Below, one piece after another: positions 44,490-57,739 of a DNA stretch of 64,000 nucleotides. A program made the position numbers and the translations under genes. The stretch covers positions 558,001-622,000 of the forward strand of contig NZ_CP015102.1 in NCBI RefSeq assembly GCF_002214485.1. Reading direction: 5' to 3'. This stretch comes from Thermococcus pacificus (lineage in GTDB: Archaea > Methanobacteriota_B > Thermococci > Thermococcales > Thermococcaceae). Under the pieces are notes generated by a model, which made no database searches, was not told the origin of the DNA, and saw only the letters and a program-made list of their open reading frames with translations. Position 1 is the stretch's first letter, and every line of letters begins with the position of its first letter.

Positions 44490-44765
44490 TTGGGGCACAC
44501 GGTCTATTACCGCACCATAATTGATAGGTGGAATGAGTTCAGGGATTTCCTGGAAGCTGTTTGTGAAGGGCTCGGCTTCCGTTTTGTTGAGGGAGAAGAT
44601 TCCGTTATGATCCTACCAGAATGCCGTGGTGTCGAGCCCCTGGAGATAAAGAAGAACGGAAAAGGTTTCGTCAAAACGAACTTAGTCGAACCCTGCCATT
44701 CCATCTATCTGCTGATCCTTCACTCAGTCGCGTTCTTCGGCTCCGTCGAGCTCTGGGAGGATTGA
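44490..44765 (+). CDS. Hypothetical protein
   Basis: 91 residues from TTG 44490 (SD GGTGATAGC just before, TATA-like CTTTTTAAAG at about 44450). It reads GHTVYYRTIIDRWNEFRDFL, then EAVCEGLGFRFVEGEDSVMI and an acid-rich end FGSVELWED. The aromatic/charged pattern suggests a small soluble alpha/beta domain. No family recognised. Its last 46 nt overlap the convergent DUF2101 gene. The longer frame from 44436 covers the TATA box and is unlikely. Confidence 0.65.
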   Translation: MGHTVYYRTIIDRWNEFRDFLEAVCEGLGFRFVEGEDSVMILPECRGVEPLEIKKNGKGFVKTNLVEPCHSIYLLILHSVAFFGSVELWED

Positions 44766-45466
44766 TCATCGAGGTAGATCTCTATTATCCTAACCGGGAC
44801 TGCCCCTCTGAGTTTTTTATCCTCCACGATGAGCTTCACAACCCTGCCGACCTCTAGGTCTTCCACCGCGTCCACCCAGTAGTAGCCAGGTTTAACGTTG
44901 GCCGCTATGTCGTCGTGGACGAAAACCCTGACGGCTTCACCTTTGATCTCTTCCACTGTCCCGTAGGTGTAGTCCCTGCCGTATCTCTGCTTGAAGTACC
45001 ATCTGAAAGCTAGGATCACTGCAACCACGAGAGCGAGGTAGCCGTAGTAGTAATACACGCTAGTGGCAAGTCTCCTCACCGCGTCGTAGCCGGCGAACGC
45101 GGCGAACGTTAGCCAGGTTATTGAGTAGTAGAAGAACCTGTACGGTTCAACATCGATGAAGAAACTCCTGTTCCTGGTCGTGAGGTGCCTTACGTAGAGG
45201 AAATTAATGACCGCCAGGGTCAGTATCCACAGGGGGTTGGCCCTGAGGAATAGAAGTATCAGACCGATGCCTAGGTAAAGGAGGAAGCTGATCTGAAGCT
45301 TAAGGCTGAGGAACTCGTGCGGGCTCAGGGGCTTTTTGATGACCTTTTTCAGGTACTTGAAGTCAGGGGGTTGCTCGGAGGGGGAGGGCTTCAAAAACTC
45401 CGAGATCCTGTCCCCAATTGAGTATACTGCATCGCCTACTCTGTATAGGATTTCCTCAACGGACAT
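44720..45466 (-). CDS. DUF2101 family membrane protein
   Basis: 248 residues. A soluble N-terminal part (SVEEILYRVGDAVYSIGDRI) is followed by four hydrophobic spans between about 65 and 165 (LLYLGIGLILLFL, PLWILTLAVINFLYV, FFYYSITWLTFAAFAGYDAV, YGYLALVVAVILAFRWYF). The cytoplasmic tail (about 170-235) has beta-rich EEIKGEAVRVFVHDD and YYWVDAVEDLEVGRVVKLIVEDKKL, an OB/NfeD-like pattern. ATG 45466 follows GGTGAAATA. It is the last gene of the pilin-like run, 4 nt after it, so it may anchor or help assemble those proteins; this is inferred. Confidence 0.8.
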   Translation of the reverse strand: MSVEEILYRVGDAVYSIGDRISEFLKPSPSEQPPDFKYLKKVIKKPLSPHEFLSLKLQISFLLYLGIGLILLFLRANPLWILTLAVINFLYVRHLTTRNRSFFIDVEPYRFFYYSITWLTFAAFAGYDAVRRLATSVYYYYGYLALVVAVILAFRWYFKQRYGRDYTYGTVEEIKGEAVRVFVHDDIAANVKPGYYWVDAVEDLEVGRVVKLIVEDKKLRGAVPVRIIEIYLDDQSSQSSTEPKNATE

Positions 45467-45470
45467 TATT

Positions 45471-48400
45471 TCACCCCTGGAGTAGGTCGCTCGCTCCCTG
45501 TACGTCAAACATCTTTCTAGCTATCGCGGGTGTTAGATAAAAGTTTTCGTCCAGCAAGGGCGATGAGACGCCGCCGTTGGTAGAGATTCCGAAGACCTTC
45601 TTGGCGTTCGGGTTGTCTGAGGGGTAGTCGCGATAGTTGAGGTATATGTAGTCAGCGGCGGGCTGTCTCCTGATGAGGAAGTTGAGGTTGGGCGGCAGGT
45701 CCTTCGGCAGGATGAAGCTCACCAGTCCTATGGGGTATCTAGCGGTTCCGTAGACGGCCATCTGCATCTTCGCGGCTATTCTCTCGTAGTAGTTCCTGTT
45801 GGTGGTGTCCCCGCCTTCCAGTCTCTCAAAGAACGACGGTGCCCCCTGTACTCCAAAGTACTTCTGGGCCTGGATGCAGTCGATGAAGGGCTGAATATCG
45901 TACGCCCTCGCGGTGGAGTATCCCCCGGCGGACGGCACGCTCTCGCTCGAGGTGGTCGTAATCTGGCTTTCTGTGTAGGTCTCGTACGGGTACAGGGCCG
46001 CCACTATCCAGTCAAAGTAGGCGTCGTTCCCCTGGCCGTTGTCGATGATGGCGAATAGTTTGAATCCCGTGACCTGTCCGATCTGCACGCTCGCGGTGGA
46101 CTCCCGGGAGCCCGCGAGGTTGGGACTGTGGGTGAACGTCAGGTCGAGGTTGATAGAGTCTTTCTCTACGATTACCTCGTACCTCTGGGGAGTTTCCACG
46201 TCCCAGGCCCCGTTGTAGTTGTCGAGGTTGGTGTCCCAATCCTGAAGGATGGCGAGCTTGTCGCCCCCGTGGTCCTGATGGCCAGGGTTGTCGTCTATGA
46301 ACTGGAGTGAGACCGGCTCCTGCCCTCCGGCGATTTCGACATACTCCGAGAGCTGGGAGATGTCCACGTACCTCCTTATGAAGACCCAGTCGAAAACTGC
46401 GGTATTATCATTATTGTCATCGAGGTTTATCAGCTCGAGGCTGAGGAGGGGGTCTTTGTACACACGGTAGTAGCCATCGTCGTCGTTGTACCTTATGGGA
46501 TTATCAAAGTATGCCCTGTTGGTAGTGCCGTAGTCTGCAAAATCAACGTCAGCAACGGGATAATCACCGTCCCAGTATCCCGGGTGTATTGAGACTTCGT
46601 ACGTGCGGTATCCACAGCACCCCCTGGTTTTCTGCACACTAGTTGGATAATAGGAGTACCACCCACCATAATAGTCGTCCCACCATTCGTCTTGGATCTT
46701 CAGAGTGTTGTCCTCCTCCACTAAATCGTCGGTGAAGTTGATGTAGTATACGTCCGTATACCACCTTCCGCGCACTTTGTACGTGTATTCCGTGTGGACC
46801 CTTATCCCCGCGTTCCACGCTTTGTTCTTGGTTGTGGGTTTCATACTAAACCTGATGGCTATATCGCCCTGTATGCCGTAACTGGAGAGGTCAAAAGAGG
46901 TGCTTTGGCCGTCGTCTATTCTCTTATCGCTATCAGTGAACCAAAGGAAAACCTGGGAGCCGTCCCCCCTCGTGTAAGTTCCCGTGTTGTACTTTATGTA
47001 GAAAGTACCTGGAAGATTCCCCTTAACCCAGATTAGAGCACCGTTATCGTTCCAGTATTCAATCCAGAAGGGAACCGGATTCTGAAGCTGTTCATCCGAG
47101 TAAACCTCTATCTGTGCTTCGTTTTGAGAGTTGTGGGTTATCGCTTGGGCCGTTGCTGAGTCTAGGTGAATGGGTATCTGGACTCCAGAGAGGCTTTCGG
47201 GGTAGTTAACTGTGGCCTTCAGGTATTTTTCTCCACCCTTTGGAATCGTCTCTACTTCCACTCCCGAGTCAAAATCCCACGTGCTGGTCGAGGCCTTAAC
47301 CGAATACCTGACGAAGAACGAATCCCACGGTACGGTGGATACAAGCTTGCTCTCCTCCTCGCCGGCGGTTAGGGCCACGCTCTGGTTGTGAACGGGGAAG
47401 ATCGCTATGTTTCCGCTCCACTCCATGCTCTGGTCGCTGGTAGAGTAGTAGACGGTGTACTCCCTCGTGTCGGTGGTGTTGAGCCAGATAAGTATCTTGT
47501 CGTCCCCCCAGTATTCTATCCAGTAGGGGGCTATTTCGCAGGAGGTGTCCGAGCGCTTGTATATCCTTATTGAGGCGGCGCTACCGTCATGGACGGCGCT
47601 TCCGAACGGCACGGAGGAGGGGGTGAGCTCGAGGAGCACGAGTGAATTCGGGGGAGCGGTACTGGGGAGCGTCATGTTGGCGCGGTACTCCAGCTTCTTC
47701 TCGCACCAGTGGGAGGGAGTGCCAGTGCCCCCGCTGATTGAATCGAACGTCATGACTCCTATGTCTCCCGGGTTGAAGACGCTCAAGGGCGAAACCTTCC
47801 TTCCGCCGAGCGTTGTATTGAAGATGTAAGGGGCGTTCGGGGTCTCGGACGGTTGTTGCCTCGTTATGTAACCGAGGACGTTCTCCCCCGCGGTGTACTT
47901 GTCGCTGTAGAATATCGTTCCTCCCCTGGGCACGTTGTAAAGCTGTCCTGAGAAGGTCTTTATGCTGGAATGCCCGTATCCATCGAGGCGGGTGTAGGGC
48001 GGGGTGATTGAGGGGTAGGCGAACTTGCACGCGGAGATTATCCTGGAGGTTCTTCCGCTCGTGAGGTGTGGGAAGAGCGGGTCCTCTATGCCCTCTATCG
48101 GAATAACCACGTAAACGGAGCCTTTCTGCGGGATTGAGGAATTGTAGACGACTAGTCCTGAGGAGTCCTCTATGATGATGTTGGGTATGCTCGCGTTGAC
48201 GACTATGTGGAAGGAGTCGAGCGGTGCCACGGTGAGCTTCATGTTCTGAACTATCTCATCCGGGCTTGGCTTCATCGTGTAGCCCTGCCTCTCGAGCTCC
48301 CACTCCATGTTCCTCAGCCAGTCCTTGATGGTGTTGTTCTTCATGAAGAACTCCTCGCGAGACTTCCACTCGGAGTTCGTCCCCCCTATGTAGGGGTAGT

Positions 48401-48689
48401 GGCCGTAGGTTATCAGCTGCTTCAAAGCCGCGCTGGCGTTGTCTAGAGGCCTCTCGCTGGTAACGTAATCAACACTGAGCGCGATAGCTCTCTTCGTGGA
48501 GAGCGAGAGAGTGTTCTTGAAGTCTTCCTCCAGATAAGAAGTCAGCCTGAACGTTCTCTCTATCTGGACGTTCTCGCTCTGGGAGGTGATTATCATCGAT
48601 GAGGCATCCTCGTACGTGGCTATGAGCAGTAACAGCGGGATGAGAAGAAGCAGAACGGCCGAATTTATGAGGAATCCTCGCCTCTTCAT
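45471..48689 (-). CDS. Very large pilin-like surface protein with DUF2341-type domains
   Basis: 1072 residues. The N-terminus MKRRGFLINSAVLLLLIPLL is one hydrophobic helix after a basic start, like a class III (prepilin-type) signal but without the usual acidic residue at +5. Next come a helical region, a Ser/Thr/Asn-rich extracellular body with many N-x-S/T sequons, and at least two beta-sandwich modules with the DUF2341 signature (PYWIEYWGDDKILIWL near 390 and PFWIEYWNDNGALIWV near 540). Such modules are thought to bind ligands or mediate adhesion. Start ATG 48689 (ATGA overlap with the upstream gene; SD GGAGGGAG). Likely the tip or a major adhesin of the surface structure encoded here. Confidence 0.8.
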   Translation of the reverse strand: MKRRGFLINSAVLLLLIPLLLLIATYEDASSMIITSQSENVQIERTFRLTSYLEEDFKNTLSLSTKRAIALSVDYVTSERPLDNASAALKQLITYGHYPYIGGTNSEWKSREEFFMKNNTIKDWLRNMEWELERQGYTMKPSPDEIVQNMKLTVAPLDSFHIVVNASIPNIIIEDSSGLVVYNSSIPQKGSVYVVIPIEGIEDPLFPHLTSGRTSRIISACKFAYPSITPPYTRLDGYGHSSIKTFSGQLYNVPRGGTIFYSDKYTAGENVLGYITRQQPSETPNAPYIFNTTLGGRKVSPLSVFNPGDIGVMTFDSISGGTGTPSHWCEKKLEYRANMTLPSTAPPNSLVLLELTPSSVPFGSAVHDGSAASIRIYKRSDTSCEIAPYWIEYWGDDKILIWLNTTDTREYTVYYSTSDQSMEWSGNIAIFPVHNQSVALTAGEEESKLVSTVPWDSFFVRYSVKASTSTWDFDSGVEVETIPKGGEKYLKATVNYPESLSGVQIPIHLDSATAQAITHNSQNEAQIEVYSDEQLQNPVPFWIEYWNDNGALIWVKGNLPGTFYIKYNTGTYTRGDGSQVFLWFTDSDKRIDDGQSTSFDLSSYGIQGDIAIRFSMKPTTKNKAWNAGIRVHTEYTYKVRGRWYTDVYYINFTDDLVEEDNTLKIQDEWWDDYYGGWYSYYPTSVQKTRGCCGYRTYEVSIHPGYWDGDYPVADVDFADYGTTNRAYFDNPIRYNDDDGYYRVYKDPLLSLELINLDDNNDNTAVFDWVFIRRYVDISQLSEYVEIAGGQEPVSLQFIDDNPGHQDHGGDKLAILQDWDTNLDNYNGAWDVETPQRYEVIVEKDSINLDLTFTHSPNLAGSRESTASVQIGQVTGFKLFAIIDNGQGNDAYFDWIVAALYPYETYTESQITTTSSESVPSAGGYSTARAYDIQPFIDCIQAQKYFGVQGAPSFFERLEGGDTTNRNYYERIAAKMQMAVYGTARYPIGLVSFILPKDLPPNLNFLIRRQPAADYIYLNYRDYPSDNPNAKKVFGISTNGGVSSPLLDENFYLTPAIARKMFDVQGASDLLQG

Positions 48690-50854
48690 GAGTTCTCCCT
48701 CCATACCCTTAGGGTGACCATTATGGGCGATATTGAACTTGGAATTCCACCGAGGGACGCGAAGTCTATCTTGGTGTCCGAGAGCTCGACCAGTATCGGG
48801 TGGTTCCAGCCATCCCCACCGAGCTTTTGGAACAGCCTGAGAACCGCATCGTCCACGGCGTAGTCCCCTGGCTTCAGCTCTGCGGCGGTTAAGTTCATGT
48901 ATTCCCCGCGGGAGACCGCGGCCTTGTCGCCTATGATTATGCTCGACTCCCTCACAGTGCTTCCAACTATGTACTTGTAGGTGAGGTTGTAGGCCTTGAC
49001 CTCTGGGTATCCCTGGAGGAGCTTTGGCTTGATGTCCTTGTACGGGGCGTAGGCGTCGAGGAGGAACAGAACCTCACCGAGGGCGTGGGAGGGGTCCACT
49101 CCGTAGCATTTCCCAAAGGAGAGGTCAAATTTGTTGAGGCCAGGATGTATGGCGTCCTCGACCACTCTGCCTTGGTAGTCCCTCGTGGTGACGGTGTATC
49201 CCCATCTGGTGAATACATCGAGGAAATCGTTGTGCTGGGGAGCGTCGTAGAGGGTTATCCATGTTGTCTCGTCCTTGCTGAGTATCCGGACGTCCTGGTC
49301 ACATACTGTCCCCGCATCATGAAGCCACGGGAACTGATACTTGACGTAGATGGGGGTTCCTTTTTCAGGTAGGCTCCACTGCCAGGTGACATCGTTGTAG
49401 AAGTCGCCGCTCTTCCGGTTTCTGGCAGTGTAGTCATCGAGGGTCTTCCTAAAGTCTATCGAGTACAAGCTGGCGTAGACGAACGGGGTGTAGCCGACGT
49501 ACACGTAGGATTTCGTCCCGTCGAGGTGAAGTTCACTGGAGCTTGCCCTTGTTATGTCAAAGATTATGGTGAAGAAAGACCCCGAGATGTCCTGGTACGT
49601 GTAACCGGTCGACTGTATGGCACTCGCTATCGTGGCGTTGTCAGCGGTGAACACGTTGCCCGACCTCGAGAGAGTTATCGGGTCAGAGAGTTTGTTGAAT
49701 ATCCGGAATCTGGCCGTCACGACCTCTATGTTCTCACCCTCGATGTGAATGCGAAGCTCGCTGATGTTTCCGGGGGCGAAGACGTACTTCTCCATGTCCA
49801 GCGAATCGTTGGCGTAGACATCGGCGAAGTAGAACTTGTGAGGGTATGTGAAGGTGGACGCCTGAGACGTCTTGTAGGTGATTATGATGTGCTGGGCTCC
49901 GTCTTCACCGGAGTTCATGGAGTGTTTTACCAGCACCTGGAATGTGACGTTGATATTCTGATCCACACTGTTCTGTACCTCCTCCACAAGGTTGCAGGTG
50001 GTGTAGTCGTTGTCGTTGGTGTCCTCAAGCTCTTCGTTTAGGTGGACGTTATTCCATCCCCCATTGTCCCAGTCCCGGCAGGTGACGTATTTGTCATTGA
50101 TCCTGATGGAGTAGTCCGAGTACGTCCAAGCTCCCTCCAAGAGCCACTTAACTCCAGTAATCCTCGCATCGGAGGGGAACTGCGACGTGGGGACGATGTA
50201 CCTGATTTTTATCGGTCCCGTATTATCATTAGCCGTTGCTATGTAGTCTCCCATGTAGGTGTACGTCGTTTCCTTCGCCTTCAGTTTGCTCAGGTAGGCC
50301 CTGGCCATGTATCCCCTGGGCGTTTTGTTGTACTCGTAACCGCTGAGTATAAGGGTCGCTGGCATGACGTCTGGGGTCAGGTTGTAGTTGCTGCCGCTCT
50401 TGATGATGTAGGGCCTCTCGTAGTTGTACACGTTGCTGCTGTTGTTGGTGGAGATTATGAGTTCGTAGTTATAGTCTTTCAGTGCCGTGTCCAGGATGAA
50501 CGATAAAATCTCCCCGGCTTTTTCCCTCAGCCTCAGGGAGGGGTACTTAGCGTCCATCGACCAGTATGTGGTAGTTATCTCGAGGGGGGACATGTGGGGG
50601 TCGACGAGGGTGGTGTTGATAACCCCTGAGGATATCCACTCCGAGAGCTTTTCCTGCGGGACGATGTCGCTGAGGGGAACGGTCTTCAGCATCGTCAACG
50701 TGTCCTCCGCGAGGTATTTGTCGCTCGAGCGCATGTAAGTGGAGTACACGTTCCTAGTCTGGGCCTCTATCCCGATTATACTCGTTATTATTATCAGTGC
50801 CAGAAACACGGATAGTATCGCGTCAAGTGTGAAAATGAAGGCTCGCCTCTTCAT
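48686..50854 (-). CDS. Large pilin-like surface protein
   Basis: 722 residues. MKRRAFIFTLDAILSVFLAL resembles an archaeal class III signal (basic, then a helix with LD at about +6), followed by one hydrophobic helix of 20 or so residues. The rest is a beta-rich extracellular domain with many sequons and two or more Cys pairs (for example YVTCRDWDN / TTCNLVEE). There is no enzyme motif. It overlaps both neighbours by 4 nt, so the whole run is one operon. Probably a minor pilin or adhesin; no homologous domain recognised. Confidence 0.75.
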   Translation of the reverse strand: MKRRAFIFTLDAILSVFLALIIITSIIGIEAQTRNVYSTYMRSSDKYLAEDTLTMLKTVPLSDIVPQEKLSEWISSGVINTTLVDPHMSPLEITTTYWSMDAKYPSLRLREKAGEILSFILDTALKDYNYELIISTNNSSNVYNYERPYIIKSGSNYNLTPDVMPATLILSGYEYNKTPRGYMARAYLSKLKAKETTYTYMGDYIATANDNTGPIKIRYIVPTSQFPSDARITGVKWLLEGAWTYSDYSIRINDKYVTCRDWDNGGWNNVHLNEELEDTNDNDYTTCNLVEEVQNSVDQNINVTFQVLVKHSMNSGEDGAQHIIITYKTSQASTFTYPHKFYFADVYANDSLDMEKYVFAPGNISELRIHIEGENIEVVTARFRIFNKLSDPITLSRSGNVFTADNATIASAIQSTGYTYQDISGSFFTIIFDITRASSSELHLDGTKSYVYVGYTPFVYASLYSIDFRKTLDDYTARNRKSGDFYNDVTWQWSLPEKGTPIYVKYQFPWLHDAGTVCDQDVRILSKDETTWITLYDAPQHNDFLDVFTRWGYTVTTRDYQGRVVEDAIHPGLNKFDLSFGKCYGVDPSHALGEVLFLLDAYAPYKDIKPKLLQGYPEVKAYNLTYKYIVGSTVRESSIIIGDKAAVSRGEYMNLTAAELKPGDYAVDDAVLRLFQKLGGDGWNHPILVELSDTKIDFASLGGIPSSISPIMVTLRVWRENS

Positions 50855-52245
50855 GAGTCATCCCACACCCACAGCTTTAACATCGTTCTCTCAAACTTGG
50901 GCTTCATAATGGTGCCCAGATGCCCCATGTCCGTTATCTTGGCCGTCCCGCCGAACGTGTTGCCGTATATCCACACCAGGATGACCTTCGAACCGGTACT
51001 CGTGTCGAATGCCTGGAATATAGAGCTCCATGGAACGTCCACGCTGGTCGTGTTCCCTATGTAGAACTTGGGCGGGGATGAATCGCCCGAGGTTGCCACT
51101 ACCGCCTGCAGGGCAGAATCCTCGCTCTGTTTCTCTATGAGCACGCCCCTATACTCGTCTCCATCCCTAGCTATCAGGATTATCCTACCCGTGTCCTGGG
51201 GCGCAACGGTGACCCGGAAGTAGGCGTACTCCGGCACGTTCATCGTCAGCCTGCCGGCTATCCACTCGGTGGTTGAGGGTGAATCGACATCGATGCTCTC
51301 CTCGTACTTTAACTTCTCCACCGTGACCTTTCTCTCTATGTACTCGACCCACGGTGACCTGTCGCGGGATTTCTGTATTGTGGCGTCATCATTCACCTTG
51401 CTTCCGTTTATGACGGCTATCCTGTATGAGGGGGCCGTTAGCTCCTCGGGCTCCGTCACATCGACATTCACCTGTATAGTGTTCTTCTGGTAGCCCTCCA
51501 CTATGATCCTAACCTGTCCCTGTCCGGTTATGTGGAGCCCCCTGTCGGTCCACTGCACCTGGAAGTGTGAGCCGGTGGATATCACCTGTATCCCTACGTA
51601 AGCGGGCGCGGGGATTGGATAGTCTTCGCCGTTCTTTCTATCATGAACTGTTATGTCCTCAAGGGTGTAGAACGCCAGAACGTCCCCAGGGGAGAGGCTG
51701 TACGGCTGGTTGCGCTTGGGGAGTTTGTCCCCGTTAAGCGTCACGTTGGTGGCGTCGAAGGGGTTGTTGCCCGTGCTGCCCTGTCCTATCTGCATGTTCC
51801 TGTCCTTTCCGTCGCTGAGGTCAATGAACACCCTCTTGGGGAAGTTTCCGGTCAGGCTGACGGTGGTGTTTGTGAGGTAGAGGTGGAGCTCGAAGTCCTT
51901 GTTGTTGCTCATGCTGATTAGGCTGTTGACCACCGCGGTGTCGTCCCCCAGTTGCATCAGGGCTGATATCTTCTCGTAGCTGACTGCGTAGGGGTACGTG
52001 TCACTTCTGAGGCCAAGACTCCTGAGTTTTGAAGCGTCCTTGATCCAGTTGGCTGGGTCTCCCGGGTTCTTGGTCAGAACGTCGAGCATATTGCTGGCTA
52101 TGTTAGCCCTATCGTACCAGCTCACCATTGTGGATATTTCGTTCTGAAGGGCCGTTGAGGTGCTGGTTATCGTGCCGAGCATCACGACTACCATGACTAA
52201 TGCCAACATTGCGTCCAGCGAAAGTATCTGTCCCCTGCGCCTCAT
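50851..52245 (-). CDS. Pilin-like surface protein
   Basis: 464 residues. The leader MRRRGQILSLDAMLALVMVV has the Gly-Gln cleavage pair of prepilin peptidase (PibD/FlaK) sites, and the following helix carries the polymerisation-type hydrophobic stretch. After about residue 35 come a helical part and several beta-sandwich-like segments, rich in Ser, Thr and Asp. No catalytic motif. It overlaps both neighbours by 4 nt. Confidence 0.78.
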   Translation of the reverse strand: MRRRGQILSLDAMLALVMVVVMLGTITSTSTALQNEISTMVSWYDRANIASNMLDVLTKNPGDPANWIKDASKLRSLGLRSDTYPYAVSYEKISALMQLGDDTAVVNSLISMSNNKDFELHLYLTNTTVSLTGNFPKRVFIDLSDGKDRNMQIGQGSTGNNPFDATNVTLNGDKLPKRNQPYSLSPGDVLAFYTLEDITVHDRKNGEDYPIPAPAYVGIQVISTGSHFQVQWTDRGLHITGQGQVRIIVEGYQKNTIQVNVDVTEPEELTAPSYRIAVINGSKVNDDATIQKSRDRSPWVEYIERKVTVEKLKYEESIDVDSPSTTEWIAGRLTMNVPEYAYFRVTVAPQDTGRIILIARDGDEYRGVLIEKQSEDSALQAVVATSGDSSPPKFYIGNTTSVDVPWSSIFQAFDTSTGSKVILVWIYGNTFGGTAKITDMGHLGTIMKPKFERTMLKLWVWDDS

Positions 52246-52724
52246 GCTCCCACCACGTTCACGTTTATCAAGACCTTTTTCCCGCCGTAGTAGATGGTCT
52301 TCCCCTCCATCCTGGCGTTGGTGTGGTCGAGGAGGTCCCTCACCAAAAAGTCCTGTATCGCCTTGGCTATGTTATCGTTGTCGAGGTCGACTTTTCCGGA
52401 GTACCTGACCTGTATGTTAATGGTTATCGTGTCTCCACTCTCGCTTGAGCTTATCGACGAGACCATGAAGTTTCTCGAGGTGTAGTTGGACTTCTCTATC
52501 ACGGGGTTGAGGATACTGTACGGCTGACTGTCCGCGGTGACCCCTGAATTGAGGTACGAGCACGCGCTCGAAGCGGAGGATTTCACGTAGGTGATAAGGG
52601 TGCTGCTCCGGTTCTCGTCAAGGTAAGAGGGAACGAGGATGACTATCCCTGTCAGTATTATCGCGGTCATGAAGAGAACCTCAATGGCGACCTGCCCTTT
52701 ACGGCGAGTAGCTGAGCTCAACAT
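52242..52724 (-). CDS. Class III signal peptide (pilin-like) protein
   Basis: 160 residues. RRKGQVAIEVLFMTAIILTG is a canonical archaeal class III signal: basic, Gly-Gln, Glu at +5, hydrophobic helix. The C-terminal domain (about 45-160) is beta-rich with NYTSRNF and ITINIQVRYSGKV and ends GGKKVLINVNVVGA. It should be cleaved by prepilin peptidase and either polymerise or sit as a minor subunit. It overlaps the upstream gene by 26 nt. Confidence 0.85.
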   Translation of the reverse strand: MLSSATRRKGQVAIEVLFMTAIILTGIVILVPSYLDENRSSTLITYVKSSASSACSYLNSGVTADSQPYSILNPVIEKSNYTSRNFMVSSISSSESGDTITINIQVRYSGKVDLDNDNIAKAIQDFLVRDLLDHTNARMEGKTIYYGGKKVLINVNVVGA

Positions 52725-53142
52725 AAACCTTCCCTCCCCTCTCCCGGGCCTTTATCCATATCTCGCTTTTGTCGGGTGTTATCTGAATTGATTCGTCCTG
52801 GTATATAGGGACCGGGCTCTGCTGTACCGTGGTGTACTGTCTTCCACCGATGTTGCCGGTTATGATTATCATATTATCCTTCGAGCTCAGCCTTACGGTG
52901 ATGCTATCGCCACCCGTGAGCGGGATGGGTGACTCCTTCTTGGCGCTGAACCCGTTGCCGGAGGCGTATACCTTGGTCACCGTGTCCCTTATGTCCACGG
53001 AGAATATCTTCAGACGGGTGGTTGCGTCGAAGGTTTCCGCGTGGCTTCGCTGCATGTTGGCGATGTAGACCATGTTAAGAACGGTGATGGCGATGAGAGT
53101 AATCGCGAACAGGAAGTCAAGGCTGATCTGTCCCCTCTTCAT
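52699..53142 (-). CDS. Class III signal peptide (pilin-like) protein
   Basis: 147 residues. MKRGQISLDFLFAITLIAIT fits the prepilin peptidase site (KRG/QISLD), with Asp at +5. A soluble beta domain follows (ITVRLSSKDNMIIITGNIGG, EIWIKARERGGKVYVELSYS). Start ATG 53142 lies after GGTGGGTGACC; the frame to 53178 overlaps the previous pilin gene. Function as for its neighbours. Confidence 0.88.
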   Translation of the reverse strand: MKRGQISLDFLFAITLIAITVLNMVYIANMQRSHAETFDATTRLKIFSVDIRDTVTKVYASGNGFSAKKESPIPLTGGDSITVRLSSKDNMIIITGNIGGRQYTTVQQSPVPIYQDESIQITPDKSEIWIKARERGGKVYVELSYSP

Positions 53143-53692
53143 GGTCACCCACCGGGTTGATGTTGATTCTGATCTCAAGGTATCCGTCGACGGTCTTGCT
53201 GCTCCAGCCCTCTGCCTTGTCCGGGTTCCACTCCACGACTATTCTAACGGACTTTGAGGGAAGGCCATTTGGGAACGGGAGGGAGGCTTCCTTGAAGCTG
53301 TATGGCACCTCCGTAGTCACGGTGTTCTTGTTGTCCCCGCTCGTGACCGAGTTGCTCCCTACCCACACCATTACGGAGTTCCCGCTGCCCTTTATGGTAA
53401 CCGAAGTGGAGCCGAAGGTCTTCTGCAGGTAGTCCGGCTCGGCAAGGTAGGTGACCTTAGCGTAGGTCGTGGACTTCGCCCCGGGTCCCTGGGCGTAGAC
53501 CTGGGCTACAGTGCCTGCGATGGTGTTTGCGAGGTTCTTCTCCTCCAGGAGAATCTGCATGTTCAGGGTTTCCGCTGAGGTGGAACCCTGCTGGAAGGTT
53601 ATGCTGTTGACGGAGTATAACATAAGTACGAGCATGATACCGAACACTAACATGAATTCTAAGGACACTTGACCACGTCTCACAATACGCAT
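53117..53692 (-). CDS. Class III signal peptide (pilin-like) protein, first of the run
   Basis: 191 residues. VRRGQVSLEFMLVFGIMLVL is the best-matching class III signal of the set (RRG/QVSLE). Its beta-rich C-terminal domain has TSVTIKGSGNSVMVWVGSN and SVRIVVEWNPDKAEGW. ATG 53692 follows GAGGGAAGAA. It has its own promoter (next entry), so it may be the major subunit; the order from small to giant proteins resembles pilin operons with minor pilins and adhesins downstream. Confidence 0.88.
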   Translation of the reverse strand: MRIVRRGQVSLEFMLVFGIMLVLMLYSVNSITFQQGSTSAETLNMQILLEEKNLANTIAGTVAQVYAQGPGAKSTTYAKVTYLAEPDYLQKTFGSTSVTIKGSGNSVMVWVGSNSVTSGDNKNTVTTEVPYSFKEASLPFPNGLPSKSVRIVVEWNPDKAEGWSSKTVDGYLEIRININPVGDHEEGTDQP

Positions 53693-53724
53693 GTTTCTTC
53701 CCTCAATGGGTATATCTTTGAACA

Positions 53725-53735
53725 TATATTTAATA
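53725..53735 (-). promoter_or_regulatory. Promoter of the pilin-like run
   Basis: On the minus strand, TATTAAATATA lies about 35-40 nt before ATG 53692, overlapping the stop of the upstream membrane-protein gene. It allows the pilin-like genes to be transcribed apart from cetZ. Confidence 0.65.
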
Positions 53736-54359
53736 GTTGCCCTTCGATTTTTCGACCTTTACCACCGCGAAAAGGCCCGTTCCGAGTTTTTTGGTCTCGA
53801 TACCGAAATAATCACCGCTGAATATCTTGAACTTGTAGTGCTCTGGCTGGAGGCCGTGTCCCCCCACGAGGTTTCTGAGCTCGTCAATGAAGAGCTGGGT
53901 GAGCTCGTAGTATATCAGGTCGAACCTCTCCTTCGCCCTGTCGTGGAGTAGCACTGCCAGCGGAAGCAGTGCCAGGCCGAGGAGGACGTAGGGCTGGCCC
54001 GTGAAGACAGAGATGGCTCCCGCGGCGGCTATGACGATGCCCAGGGCTGTATATCCGAGCCTCTCGCGCTTCCTTATCTCCTTTATCTCCTGCACCTTCG
54101 CCTCCCAGATGTCGAGGAGCGCTGGATTGTAGAAGTCGAAGGCGGTGTGGCGCTTCCCCTTCGCTATCCTCTCCCTTATGAGGTCGTCCCAGTCGTCCCT
54201 GTAGTAGATAACCTCGCCGTGAAGCTTGGCCCTCTCCGCATCTAGGGAGGATATTATCCTGATGATGTCCTCGGCACTCTCGTGGGCGATGTGGGAATAG
54301 ACTTCCTTCTCGTCGAGGTCGAGGGCCACCTCGACTGAGTCCCTGACCGGATCAGTCAT
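53730..54359 (-). CDS. Membrane protein beside CetZ
   Basis: 209 residues. A charged, helical N-terminal part (about 1-100: SAEDIIRIISSLDAERAKLH, WDDLIRERIAKGKRH) is followed by two adjacent membrane helices (ALGIVIAAAGAISVFTG and VLLGLALLPLAVLL) and a cytoplasmic-looking C-terminal domain. The layout, with both termini on the same side, would place soluble parts in the cytoplasm, where they could meet CetZ. It overlaps the cetZ stop by 8 nt, so they are probably made together. Family not recognised. Confidence 0.75.
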   Translation of the reverse strand: MTDPVRDSVEVALDLDEKEVYSHIAHESAEDIIRIISSLDAERAKLHGEVIYYRDDWDDLIRERIAKGKRHTAFDFYNPALLDIWEAKVQEIKEIRKRERLGYTALGIVIAAAGAISVFTGQPYVLLGLALLPLAVLLHDRAKERFDLIYYELTQLFIDELRNLVGGHGLQPEHYKFKIFSGDYFGIETKKLGTGLFAVVKVEKSKGNY

Positions 54360-55521
54360 CCTCCTGCCTCCTCAGCTTCTTCGTGATACCATCAACGTCC
54401 GGAAACGAGCCGTCGTAAAGCTCCGAGACCCCTGTCTCCCCTGGGGGGTAGACATCGTCGAAGTCCGGCAGGCCACTAAGGAGCTTCTTCTTCTTAGTCT
54501 CGGCCTCTTCCCTGGCCTTCATAAAGGACTGGGCGTAGTTCTTTGCGGTGATTATGATGTCCTCGATGCTCCTGCTGTCGTAGATTCCGCTGAGGAGCGT
54601 AACTACTTCAACTTCCCTCTCCCTTGGGTCCGGGTAGAAGCCCCTGAAGATTTGCTTGCCCCTTATCTTGCCCGTGAGGTAGTCCAAGGCCTCGAAGATG
54701 TCGCTCGCCTTCAACACCTCAGGCGGGCCGTGGACGGCGACGAGGCCGTAAAGGGCTGACTCGATGTTTGCCTCGAGGTAGAGTCCCTCACTCTCAAAGG
54801 ACTTCATTATGAGCCTCGACAGGCTCTTAACCTTTCCAGCGTCCGCCTTGGCATATCCGACCGTTGCAAAGCTCCCGAAGGCCTTGAGCACGAACTTTAA
54901 ATCGCTTGAATCCAAAGTCTGCTCGCCGGGAACGTCGACGAGGGCCAGAAGCGACGCTATCCTCTCCACTATCGTGTAGTTTATCTTTTCATAGGCCTTG
55001 CTGATGTCGTCGTCCCCCTCCTTGAGCTTGTTGTTGTCGATGGCTATTATCGAGTCCGCTATCTTGGAGAGCTTGTCTATCGTTATGGCTGCGTTTATGG
55101 TGGGCCTTATGCCCTCCTCCTTGAGCGGGAGGGCGCCTATCGCTACTACGAGGGAATCAGGATACTCCTCCTTCAGCGCCTCGGCTAGGATGGGCGTTCC
55201 TCCTGCACCGGTTCCGCCGCCGAAGCCGAAGGTCAGGAAGAAGATGTCAATGTCCTCGTAGCCGATGATCGAGCCTATCTTTCTCATCACCAAGGGGAGG
55301 TCGCGCTTCATCGCTTCCCTTCCGAGGATGGGGTTTGCGTTGACACCCTTTCCCCTGGTCAGGCCCTCACCTATGAGTATCCTGCGCTCGTGGGGGATGT
55401 GCTTCAGGTACTCCAGGTCTCCCTTGGACGTGTTAACGGCTAGGGCCTCAAAATCGACGAGGGAAAAGAGGTCGGCGATTTTAGTGCCGCACTGGCCGAC
55501 CCCTATGATTAGAGCCCTCAC
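54352..55521 (-). CDS. cetZ: CetZ-type tubulin/FtsZ superfamily GTPase
   Basis: 389 residues. The nucleotide site is visible: LIIGVGQCGTKIADLF (T1), AVNTSKGDLEYL (T2), the tubulin signature GFGGGTGAGGTPILAEAL (T4), and the synergy loop NAAITIDKL followed by IDNNKLKEG, which binds the next subunit. The GGGTGAG form and the T7 sequence point to the archaeal CetZ/FtsZ3 branch, not to division FtsZ1/FtsZ2. CetZ proteins polymerise with GTP and, in haloarchaea, control cell shape and motility. An acidic, disordered C-terminal tail (about 335-389) could bind partners. Located between a secreted repeat protein and pilin genes, which suggests a role in placing the surface structure. Confidence 0.9.
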   Translation of the reverse strand: MRALIIGVGQCGTKIADLFSLVDFEALAVNTSKGDLEYLKHIPHERRILIGEGLTRGKGVNANPILGREAMKRDLPLVMRKIGSIIGYEDIDIFFLTFGFGGGTGAGGTPILAEALKEEYPDSLVVAIGALPLKEEGIRPTINAAITIDKLSKIADSIIAIDNNKLKEGDDDISKAYEKINYTIVERIASLLALVDVPGEQTLDSSDLKFVLKAFGSFATVGYAKADAGKVKSLSRLIMKSFESEGLYLEANIESALYGLVAVHGPPEVLKASDIFEALDYLTGKIRGKQIFRGFYPDPREREVEVVTLLSGIYDSRSIEDIIITAKNYAQSFMKAREEAETKKKKLLSGLPDFDDVYPPGETGVSELYDGSFPDVDGITKKLRRQEDD

Positions 55522-55528
55522 TCCCTAA

Positions 55529-57739
55529 TCACCTCACCACTATTACTCTCGCCTTTCCGTTCTCGTTTACGAGAACCATCGCGTCTCCCCTTATGTACTT
55601 TATGAAGCCGATGCTGAATATCTCCTTGACTATCTCTTCGGTTCCGGGGGTGTATAGTATCAGCAGTGCAAATCCGTTTGAGGTCCTTCCAGGAACTATC
55701 AGAACCACGTCTGATTTGGGAACCTCTATATCCCCGATCTTAATGGAGCTGTTGAGTATCTCTACGGTGATCTGGGGGTTGTATTCTTGTACGTCAATTC
55801 CTCCAATTTTTGAGATGATTACGTAGTTGCCCTCTTTTGAGATTGTCTTGGTTTTTATAAACTGCTGACCAAAGACACTATGCAGGTTTGAGGCAATCTT
55901 TGAGATGTTGTACTCGTCCGAATCTGCGAATACCTTAAACGACTGAGTATTTAGAATTGACACGATGTTCTCCAAGGTTACTAACGGCCTTATCTTGGCT
56001 ATGAATGCTATAGAAGCGGCCAGATCCAGATAATTCTCTTTGATGTCGTTCAGATTTTCAAGGATCAATGTGAGTGTGTCTTCTCTATAATCAATGCCAT
56101 ATTCTAAGAGTAATGTTGTAATCTCAGTGGTTATGAAAATCTCTGGTTCTTGAGGGATTCTTCTGCCGGTTATGTCCTCGTAGTATTTATAATAGCCCCA
56201 TCCTTTGTCCCATCTCTGAGATTCAAGCCAATCAATGTGTTCTCTCACCTCCTTCTCGTTGACAACCCTTGTGAGCGTTTTCAACACCACCATTGTTACA
56301 AAAAGATTTGGTTTCAGCATGTACTTAATGTATCTTCCGCCCATGTATGTACCCCAGCCAGTGCTGCTTATATCCATTAACCATTTTGTTGCACTTTGTA
56401 TTACAGGATCTGAGGGGGATATTCCCAAATCCAGCAAGAGATCGATGGCATAGGCGGTGTCTAACGGTTGTGGACCTAGGATTTTGGATCCCCATAGGTT
56501 AGTTCCTTGCAGTCTGGAGTTTAGAATGTTTCTGATGATCTCGTTTTTTTCGTTGCTACTGAGCTCTCCGGACTCAGCTAGAGCTTTAACCGCGTAGTAG
56601 TATTCGGGGGAAATATAGTTTCTTAGCTTTATTTTGTCTTCTTCTTTTTTCATAACTTTTCTCATGAACGTCAGGGCATTCTGTATGATCTTTGAATCAC
56701 GAGGATAACAAGAAGATAATGCCTTCAGAGCGTAGTAAGTGACTGTAGGGTTGGACTCTTGAAAATCAGAAAACGGCCAACCTCCATCAGGGTTTTGTGC
56801 CGATGCTAAAACTGAGCAGAGATCCATGGTTGTTTCGTTGAAACTTTCGGGAGGTATTGGTTTTTGATATGATCTGGATATCCCCATGATAGCGTACGCT
56901 GTAGTGGCCACGAGTTCGCTGGTACCAAAACAATTTGGTACGTTCGTCCAGTATGTTAGGTTGTCTATGGTTTTTTGGCCCTGATTAATGAGTATATGGA
57001 GCGCCCTTAACGTATTGAAATCTACTGGTTCATATAATGTAAGAGCATACGTTAATACTGCTCTCTCTTTGGTTGTGAGAGTTTCATTCAGCAATATGTA
57101 CTTGGCCCTTTCTATCTGCTCAGAGTTAACGGGAACTTTGAGGTAATGATAAGCTATTAGTTCCAAGGCAAATCTTTCATGAGGAGAGATTTCACATGTC
57201 TCCACAGAGGAGAGGTATTCAATAGCGTTCTTAACAATCTCTCTGTGGATGGTGTATTTGTTCATTCCTAAAGCCCATAAGGCTATTAAGGTGGGGTAAC
57301 ACTCAGACGTTGTTTTAGGTATATAACCCCAGGCTTCCCCATTATTAGCAGATACTAAATATCTGAGGCCTTTTTTTAGAGATACGGAAGCTTCTGCATG
57401 GAGAGGTGAACTGACATTATCTATGAATGTTCTCAATGCTATAACCGCATAGGCCGTGTCGAGAACGTTACTCGGCTCGTTCGGGTAGTAGCCCCACCCT
57501 CCATCGGCGTTCTGGTCTTCGAGGAGCTCGTTGACCAGTACCTCTATCTCGGGGGTTATGTCCCAGTTCACGTCGTCCTTCGCCGCTGCGAGGGCCATTA
57601 TGCTCAGGCTTATCTCCCTTACTTGCTGGGTGTTTTCCGAGGTCCCACTTAGAAACCTCACGGAGCCGTCTATCGCTTCGGCACTAACGGCTGGAACCAG
57701 CATGAGAACAATAATTATTACGGCCAGAACCTTCTTCAT
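55529..57739 (-). CDS. Secreted protein with prenyltransferase/squalene-cyclase-type repeats
   Basis: 736 residues. MKKVLAVIIIVLMLVPAVSA is a clear signal peptide. From about 60 to 560 there are repeated helical-hairpin units with the pattern DGGWGYYPNEPSNVLDTAYA (also DGGWPFSDFQESNPTVTYYA, GWGTYMGGRYIKYMLKPNLF, KGWGYYKYYED), the alpha/alpha-toroid of squalene-hopene cyclase, protein prenyltransferase beta and complement TED families. The DxDD cyclase motif and zinc ligands were not seen, so I expect a binding rather than catalytic toroid. A beta-rich C-terminal part follows, with no obvious anchor. The middle of the gene (about 55.8-57.4 kb) is distinctly more AT-rich than its ends. Confidence 0.83.
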   Translation of the reverse strand: MKKVLAVIIIVLMLVPAVSAEAIDGSVRFLSGTSENTQQVREISLSIMALAAAKDDVNWDITPEIEVLVNELLEDQNADGGWGYYPNEPSNVLDTAYAVIALRTFIDNVSSPLHAEASVSLKKGLRYLVSANNGEAWGYIPKTTSECYPTLIALWALGMNKYTIHREIVKNAIEYLSSVETCEISPHERFALELIAYHYLKVPVNSEQIERAKYILLNETLTTKERAVLTYALTLYEPVDFNTLRALHILINQGQKTIDNLTYWTNVPNCFGTSELVATTAYAIMGISRSYQKPIPPESFNETTMDLCSVLASAQNPDGGWPFSDFQESNPTVTYYALKALSSCYPRDSKIIQNALTFMRKVMKKEEDKIKLRNYISPEYYYAVKALAESGELSSNEKNEIIRNILNSRLQGTNLWGSKILGPQPLDTAYAIDLLLDLGISPSDPVIQSATKWLMDISSTGWGTYMGGRYIKYMLKPNLFVTMVVLKTLTRVVNEKEVREHIDWLESQRWDKGWGYYKYYEDITGRRIPQEPEIFITTEITTLLLEYGIDYREDTLTLILENLNDIKENYLDLAASIAFIAKIRPLVTLENIVSILNTQSFKVFADSDEYNISKIASNLHSVFGQQFIKTKTISKEGNYVIISKIGGIDVQEYNPQITVEILNSSIKIGDIEVPKSDVVLIVPGRTSNGFALLILYTPGTEEIVKEIFSIGFIKYIRGDAMVLVNENGKARVIVVR

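Follow-up and report, generated by a model that had tools for sequence, protein, structure and literature searches.

What a cytoskeletal GTPase of the CetZ family does inside a cluster of genes for pilin-like surface proteins is the question raised by a locus of Thermococcus pacificus. The analysed stretch of 64,000 nucleotides (hereafter the window) covers positions 558001-622000 of the 1.79 Mb single-contig genome, and in it ten genes follow one another on the minus strand from position 57739 down to 44720, with overlaps or few-base gaps throughout (Table 1).

Gene content and earlier descriptions of the block

The gene list had been correctly read in an earlier note made from the DNA letters, namely a secreted toroid protein, CetZ, a membrane protein with two helices (TM2), three small and three large proteins with class III signals, and a DUF2101 protein. 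Its genes stand as called, except that pilin 1 probably begins at an internal ATG at ~53692 (MRIVRRGQ), since most orthologs match only from there, and that the largest reading frame has 1077 residues (1072 from an internal Met). Family searches gave Pfam support for the toroid, CetZ, DUF2101, and the class III signal of two small proteins; for TM2 and for the three larger window proteins these searches gave no confident family of their own.

Table 1. Features of the CetZ-pilin block (window positions)
Feature	Position	Strand	Evidence
Secreted alpha/alpha-toroid protein, 736 aa	55529..57739	-	Pfam SQHop/TED; AlphaFold model
CetZ, tubulin-superfamily GTPase, 389 aa	54352..55521	-	Tubulin + CetZ_C
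TM2, 209 aa, membrane hairpin; conserved cytosolic domain at the N-terminus	53730..54359	-	directly 3' of cetZ in 60/60 loci
TATA element TTAAATATA of the probable pilin transcription unit	53725..53733	-	overlaps TM2 stop codon; TTAAATA conserved in 55/61 loci
Small class III pilin 1	53117..53725	-	Class_IIIsignal 4.8e-5; order 60/60; probable start ~53692
Small class III pilin 2	52699..53178	-	N-terminus KRGQISLDFLF; order 60/60; probable start internal ATG (MKRGQ)
Small class III pilin 3	52242..52724	-	Class_IIIsignal 0.0016; order 60/60
Large pilin-like protein, 464 aa	50851..52245	-	RRRGQ N-terminus; order 60/60
Large pilin-like protein with variable middle, 722 aa	48686..50854	-	class III-like N-terminus; DUF7288 in 5/37 orthologs
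Predicted PilY-like tip adhesin, 1072-1077 aa	45471..48704	-	DUF2341 in 27/33 orthologs
DUF2101 membrane protein, 262 aa ORF	44720..45508	-	PF09874 5e-76; last gene of the block in 59/60 loci

The earlier note had proposed to compare gene order in related genomes, and this comparison came out in its favour, because the order cetZ, TM2, three small pilins and three large proteins is intact in each of the 60 loci compared, which cover six genera of Thermococcales; the DUF2101 gene comes next in 59 of them and the toroid gene precedes cetZ in 58. Since most genomes also preserve the genes on either side (outer neighbours in 52-53 of the 60 loci), gene order is a moderate argument only; in genus g3 (eight loci) the upstream neighbour is gone and the block is still kept.

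The further statement of the note, that no system with this gene set is described, fails, since passages of Makarova et al. 2016 (PMC4858521) and of Brown and Duggin 2023 (PMC9856176) describe the block. According to the former, an FtsZ-family GTPase and a "squalene cyclase" belong to the type IV pilus (T4P) loci of clade 1 in most Thermococci, and a tip role is predicted there for the DUF2341 protein. These loci (with Szabo et al. 2007 cited in the same paper) have the same lineage and gene set as the block and its machine, that is minor pilins, DUF2341 PilY-like proteins, the arCOG02202 FtsZ-family GTPase, the arCOG03396 squalene cyclase, and one ATPase with two TadC-type proteins; the clade 1 assignment used here rests on this lineage and gene content. 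In comparison with the relevant passages no difference of content was found, and the T. pacificus genome has the system divided among three loci or more.

In the Brown and Duggin study (PMC9856176), as its cited passages state, all analysed Thermococcales cetZ regions are pilin-associated with a well conserved organisation, a conserved order being reported for 15 Thermococcales in the same region as here, and the authors already suggested, as a proposal only, that CetZ serves as a scaffold for type IV pili; the promoter, TM2, and the exchange of outer segments, which these passages do not treat, are added here. Likewise, CetZ adjoins type IV pilus genes in Haloferacales and Halobacteriales, where cetZ2 stands beside the pilB2/C2 regulons; these haloarchaeal regions, however, carry the ATPase and platform genes inside the block and belong to another CetZ subfamily, as that paper indicates in part. 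The CetZ of the window is ~30% identical to haloarchaeal plasmid CetZs.

Products of the block and the pilus machine

The proteins of 464, 722, and 1072-1077 residues start with class III-like N-termini (RRRGQILSLDAML, KRRAFIFTLDAIL, and KRRGFLINSAVLL, respectively), and a K/R-G-Q/F motif is found again in most orthologs. Among the orthologs of the 1077-residue protein that contain DUF2341 the best match reaches 9e-30, and the window copy is below threshold.

The TTAAATA element precedes the start of the first pilin by 25-65 nt (~0.005 expected per locus), and its conservation supports the promoter that had been placed at 53.73 kb. Because of this conserved element before the first pilin, the block probably consists of two transcription units, toroid-cetZ-TM2 and pilins-DUF2101, in agreement with the earlier note. 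Independent variation of these two units, named by the earlier note as evidence against its proposal, was found in part: their sequences do evolve independently, but the units are never separated in any locus.

The toroid protein is the "squalene cyclase" arCOG03396 of Makarova et al. 2016. It matches the Pfam families SQHop_cyclase_N (5e-8) and TED_complement (3e-6), and its AlphaFold model (pLDDT 87.7) has a fold like squalene-hopene cyclase and the TED of complement C5. An active cyclase enzyme is unsupported, as the protein fails the cyclase family cut-offs; as a squalene/oxidosqualene cyclase it reaches 34 bits with TIGR01787 against a cut-off of 322.7 and has only a partial Pfam match, though the fold is the same, and among its conserved columns there is no invariant DxDD-type acid cluster. 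The protein is dispensable, since its gene is missing in 2 of the 60 loci (L089 and L091, genomes G020 and G072), where the usual upstream neighbour stands directly before cetZ.

No ATPase or platform gene lies inside the cluster, as had been noticed before; the sole T2SSE candidate of the 64-kb window is sub-cut-off and is located at ~19.3 kb, outside the cluster. The assumption that the assembly machine is encoded elsewhere was borne out, since the only credible T2SSE ATPase of the genome (genome positions 373752-375611) and both T2SSF platform genes (375614-376687 and 376684-377589) are adjacent at 373.7-377.6 kb, ~225 kb from the pilin block, which gives the clade 1 set of one VirB11-type ATPase and two TadC-type platform proteins. 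The other T2SSE matches of this genome are weak, the one at 1707.5 kb being without a clear ATPase motif in the translated frame. Close homologs of the pilus ATPase were found across Thermococcales; in about half of them the ATPase carries a ~515-residue in-frame intein-like insertion near residue 457 (e.g., G014:C1:2007984-2011412), which is missing in the T. pacificus enzyme (G000:C1:373752-375611).

Stand-alone small class III pilins are encoded at 1128.7, 1131.3, 1131.6, and 1772.0 kb. A 401-residue membrane protein at 1772.2 kb, adjoining a stand-alone pilin, is A24 peptidase-like as judged by eye. At G000:C1:1128668-1131796 the stand-alone pilins are found amid large multi-helix membrane proteins resembling glycosyltransferases, a neighbourhood by which pilins may be connected with glycosylation of the surface.

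Constant and probably exchangeable parts of the locus

CetZ and, in TM2, the cytosolic part have hardly changed. CetZ matches Tubulin PF00091 with 103.8 bits (1.8e-29; cut-off 33) and CetZ_C PF21011 with 58.8 bits (6e-16; cut-off 21.6), and it is one of three tubulin-superfamily proteins of its genome, the two others scoring higher and the aligned one being of FtsZ type. The GTP-binding signature is present (GGGTGAGG / GFGGGTGAGG), and in the T7 loop TLDSSDLKFVL, which aligns to VNLDFNDV of the FtsZ of the same genome, both Asp residues are invariant in 61 loci. CetZ is 81-93% identical in 60 loci, with a mean of 86% over 1830 locus pairs and a core conservation of 0.92. In TM2 the cytosolic residues 15-95 have a mean conservation of 0.87 with 37 invariant positions, against 0.42-0.52 for the transmembrane region.

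In the predicted TM2 model (pLDDT 77.5) long helices are combined with a hairpin in the membrane and a beta-hairpin at the C-terminus, and neither by profile nor by predicted fold does the protein match any of the solved structures (PDB). Orthologs of CetZ and TM2 co-occur, both being present in 89 of 94 genomes and both lacking in 5, which are draft assemblies. Beyond Thermococcales only two weak C-terminal matches to TM2 were obtained, neither near CetZ or pili; they are hairpin proteins that adjoin the same amino-acid permease in two other members of the class Thermococci (L135:6135-6836(-) and L136:10639-11379(-)).

The pilins and adhesins have mean pairwise identities of 34-49%, and the three large proteins have mean identities of 34-41% over the same 1830 pairs, with a rank correlation of 0.05-0.06 between large pilin/adhesin identity and CetZ identity. 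The closest pairs were defined as the 16 locus pairs with CetZ at least 97% identical; in 15 of them some surface gene is below 80% identity. The gene of the 1077-residue protein is concerned in 14 pairs, that of the 464-residue protein in 11, and that of the 722-residue protein in 10; TM2 is below 80% in only 1. For example, in L103/L106 the middle of the 722-aa gene is 45-66% identical between flanks of 96-100%, and the remainder of the locus after the toroid gene is for the most part 92-100% identical. In L116/L118 the middle of the 1077-aa gene is 54-58% identical, in L109/L112 several outer genes differ in segments at once, and in L068/L069 the locus from the second pilin onward is 27-66% identical, with CetZ at 99% and TM2 at 97%.

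Such sharp-edged outer segments were seen in L103/L106, L109/L112/L115, L116/L118, and L068/L069, with cetZ, TM2, and the flanks mostly 90-100% identical. Fast divergence alone is insufficient to account for sharp edges between near-identical flanks, and we read the pattern as repeated homologous exchange that swapped segments of the outer genes, with their conserved ends as crossover sites. Eight loci (L068, L071, L080, L083, L085, L087, L097, and L107) have an alternative form of the 722- and 1077-aa genes, the middle gene being longer (843-878 aa) and the last one short (359-377 aa). The scattered occurrence of this form, in two genera or more, would fit allele exchange.

In the window the middle of the toroid gene (55750-57400) has a GC content of 40-42% against 51-58% in its ends and neighbours, and a third-position GC of 0.44 against 0.71-0.81 for adjoining genes, the lowest value of any toroid gene relative to its neighbours among the high-GC loci compared. 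It is 47-56% identical in DNA to two close relatives, and the middle domain is probably a recent import.

Taken as a recognition device, the locus would keep the promoter, CetZ, TM2, and both ends of every outer gene constant, and recombination would bring in new middles of the toroid gene and of the large pilin/adhesin genes from other lineages. Specificity of the pilus tip (for a partner, a surface, or a virus) would then turn over faster than species; this reading is about as likely as not. The swapped outer segments mark where pilus specificity probably lies. The block itself was already known, whereas the frozen CetZ and TM2 set against exchanged outer middles between close relatives are new as far as was found: exchange at the pilus-cetZ locus is not reported in the one paper that a literature search for it retrieved (PMC8416519). 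The hypervariable Ig-domain module in that paper likewise concerns hypervariable surface proteins of the same order; however, it consists of other genes at another locus, and neither FtsZ nor DUF2341 nor squalene cyclase is mentioned there.

Proposed function of CetZ and TM2 and competing explanations

The sequence shows prepilins with class III signals, an adhesin family with DUF2341, a conserved promoter that belongs to the pilin unit separately, and a single assembly machine elsewhere in the same genome. Taken by itself, the claim that this is a type IV pilus locus whose machine is encoded in trans is very probable. A joint claim, that the block is the minor-pilin/adhesin locus of a clade 1 T4P and that CetZ-TM2 forms a cytoplasmic scaffold on the pilus machine, is favoured by a narrow preference, since the constancy of CetZ and TM2 is equally compatible with an unrelated job of CetZ.

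In the proposed mechanism the prepilins would be cleaved by the probable peptidase encoded at 1772 kb and assembled by the machine at 373.7-377.6 kb, those of the block forming the base and tip of the pilus and the small stand-alone pilins its shaft, with the toroid and the large adhesins as exposed, exchangeable parts. CetZ may be anchored via the slow-evolving cytosolic domain of TM2 and may act as a GTP-driven scaffold on the cytoplasmic side that places or stabilises the machine. The anchoring role of TM2 is a guess from topology and conservation, as the protein has no recognisable fold relative. That CetZ and TM2 both stay unchanged when the pilin set is replaced would fit a contact with the constant machine and not with the variable pilin surfaces; the outer genes would be expected to evolve fast just as well if CetZ made no contact. 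The literature search found no experiment tying CetZ to pili in Thermococcales. For the role of CetZ outside haloarchaea this order offers a clean test, with a single CetZ, a conserved partner candidate in TM2, and one pilus machine.

It is possible, though clearly less probable than the scaffold reading, that general cell shape or division is the task of CetZ and TM2, and that they share the locus through co-expression and not through joint work. As cetZ and the pilins probably belong to different transcription units, the co-location may reflect regulation or ancestry; the pilin unit has its own conserved promoter, CetZ and TM2 evolve very slowly and are nearly universal, pilin replacement leaves the CetZ sequence unaffected, and CetZ1 contributes to cell shape in Haloferax according to the cited part of PMC11621097. 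The integrity of the block in all 60 loci, including the genus that lost its upstream neighbour, speaks against such a loose association, as does the haloarchaeal cetZ2 adjacent to another type IV pilus regulon (PMC9856176, in the passages cited).

A type II secretion-like pseudopilus with the toroid as cargo, in place of an adhesive pilus, is improbable: a secreted toroid related to cyclases and TED, many minor pilin-like proteins, and large variable proteins would fit it, but the toroid is without the invariant acid cluster and dispensable in two loci, and the small stand-alone pilins with the DUF2341 adhesin family point to a pilus.

Slightly less probable still is that CetZ positions the archaellum, as proposed for Haloferax CetZ1, and that the pilin locus is incidental; Haloferax CetZ1 is implicated in archaellum assembly and positioning (PMC11621097, in part): no archaellum gene lies within the block, and among 74 good genomes the archaellum ATPase is absent from that of T. 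pacificus, where CetZ is thus not kept for an archaellum, and from 11 others. CetZ and TM2 are kept in 11 of these 12 genomes, T. pacificus included, and such natural strains without an archaellum add to the clean test that the scaffold proposal allows.
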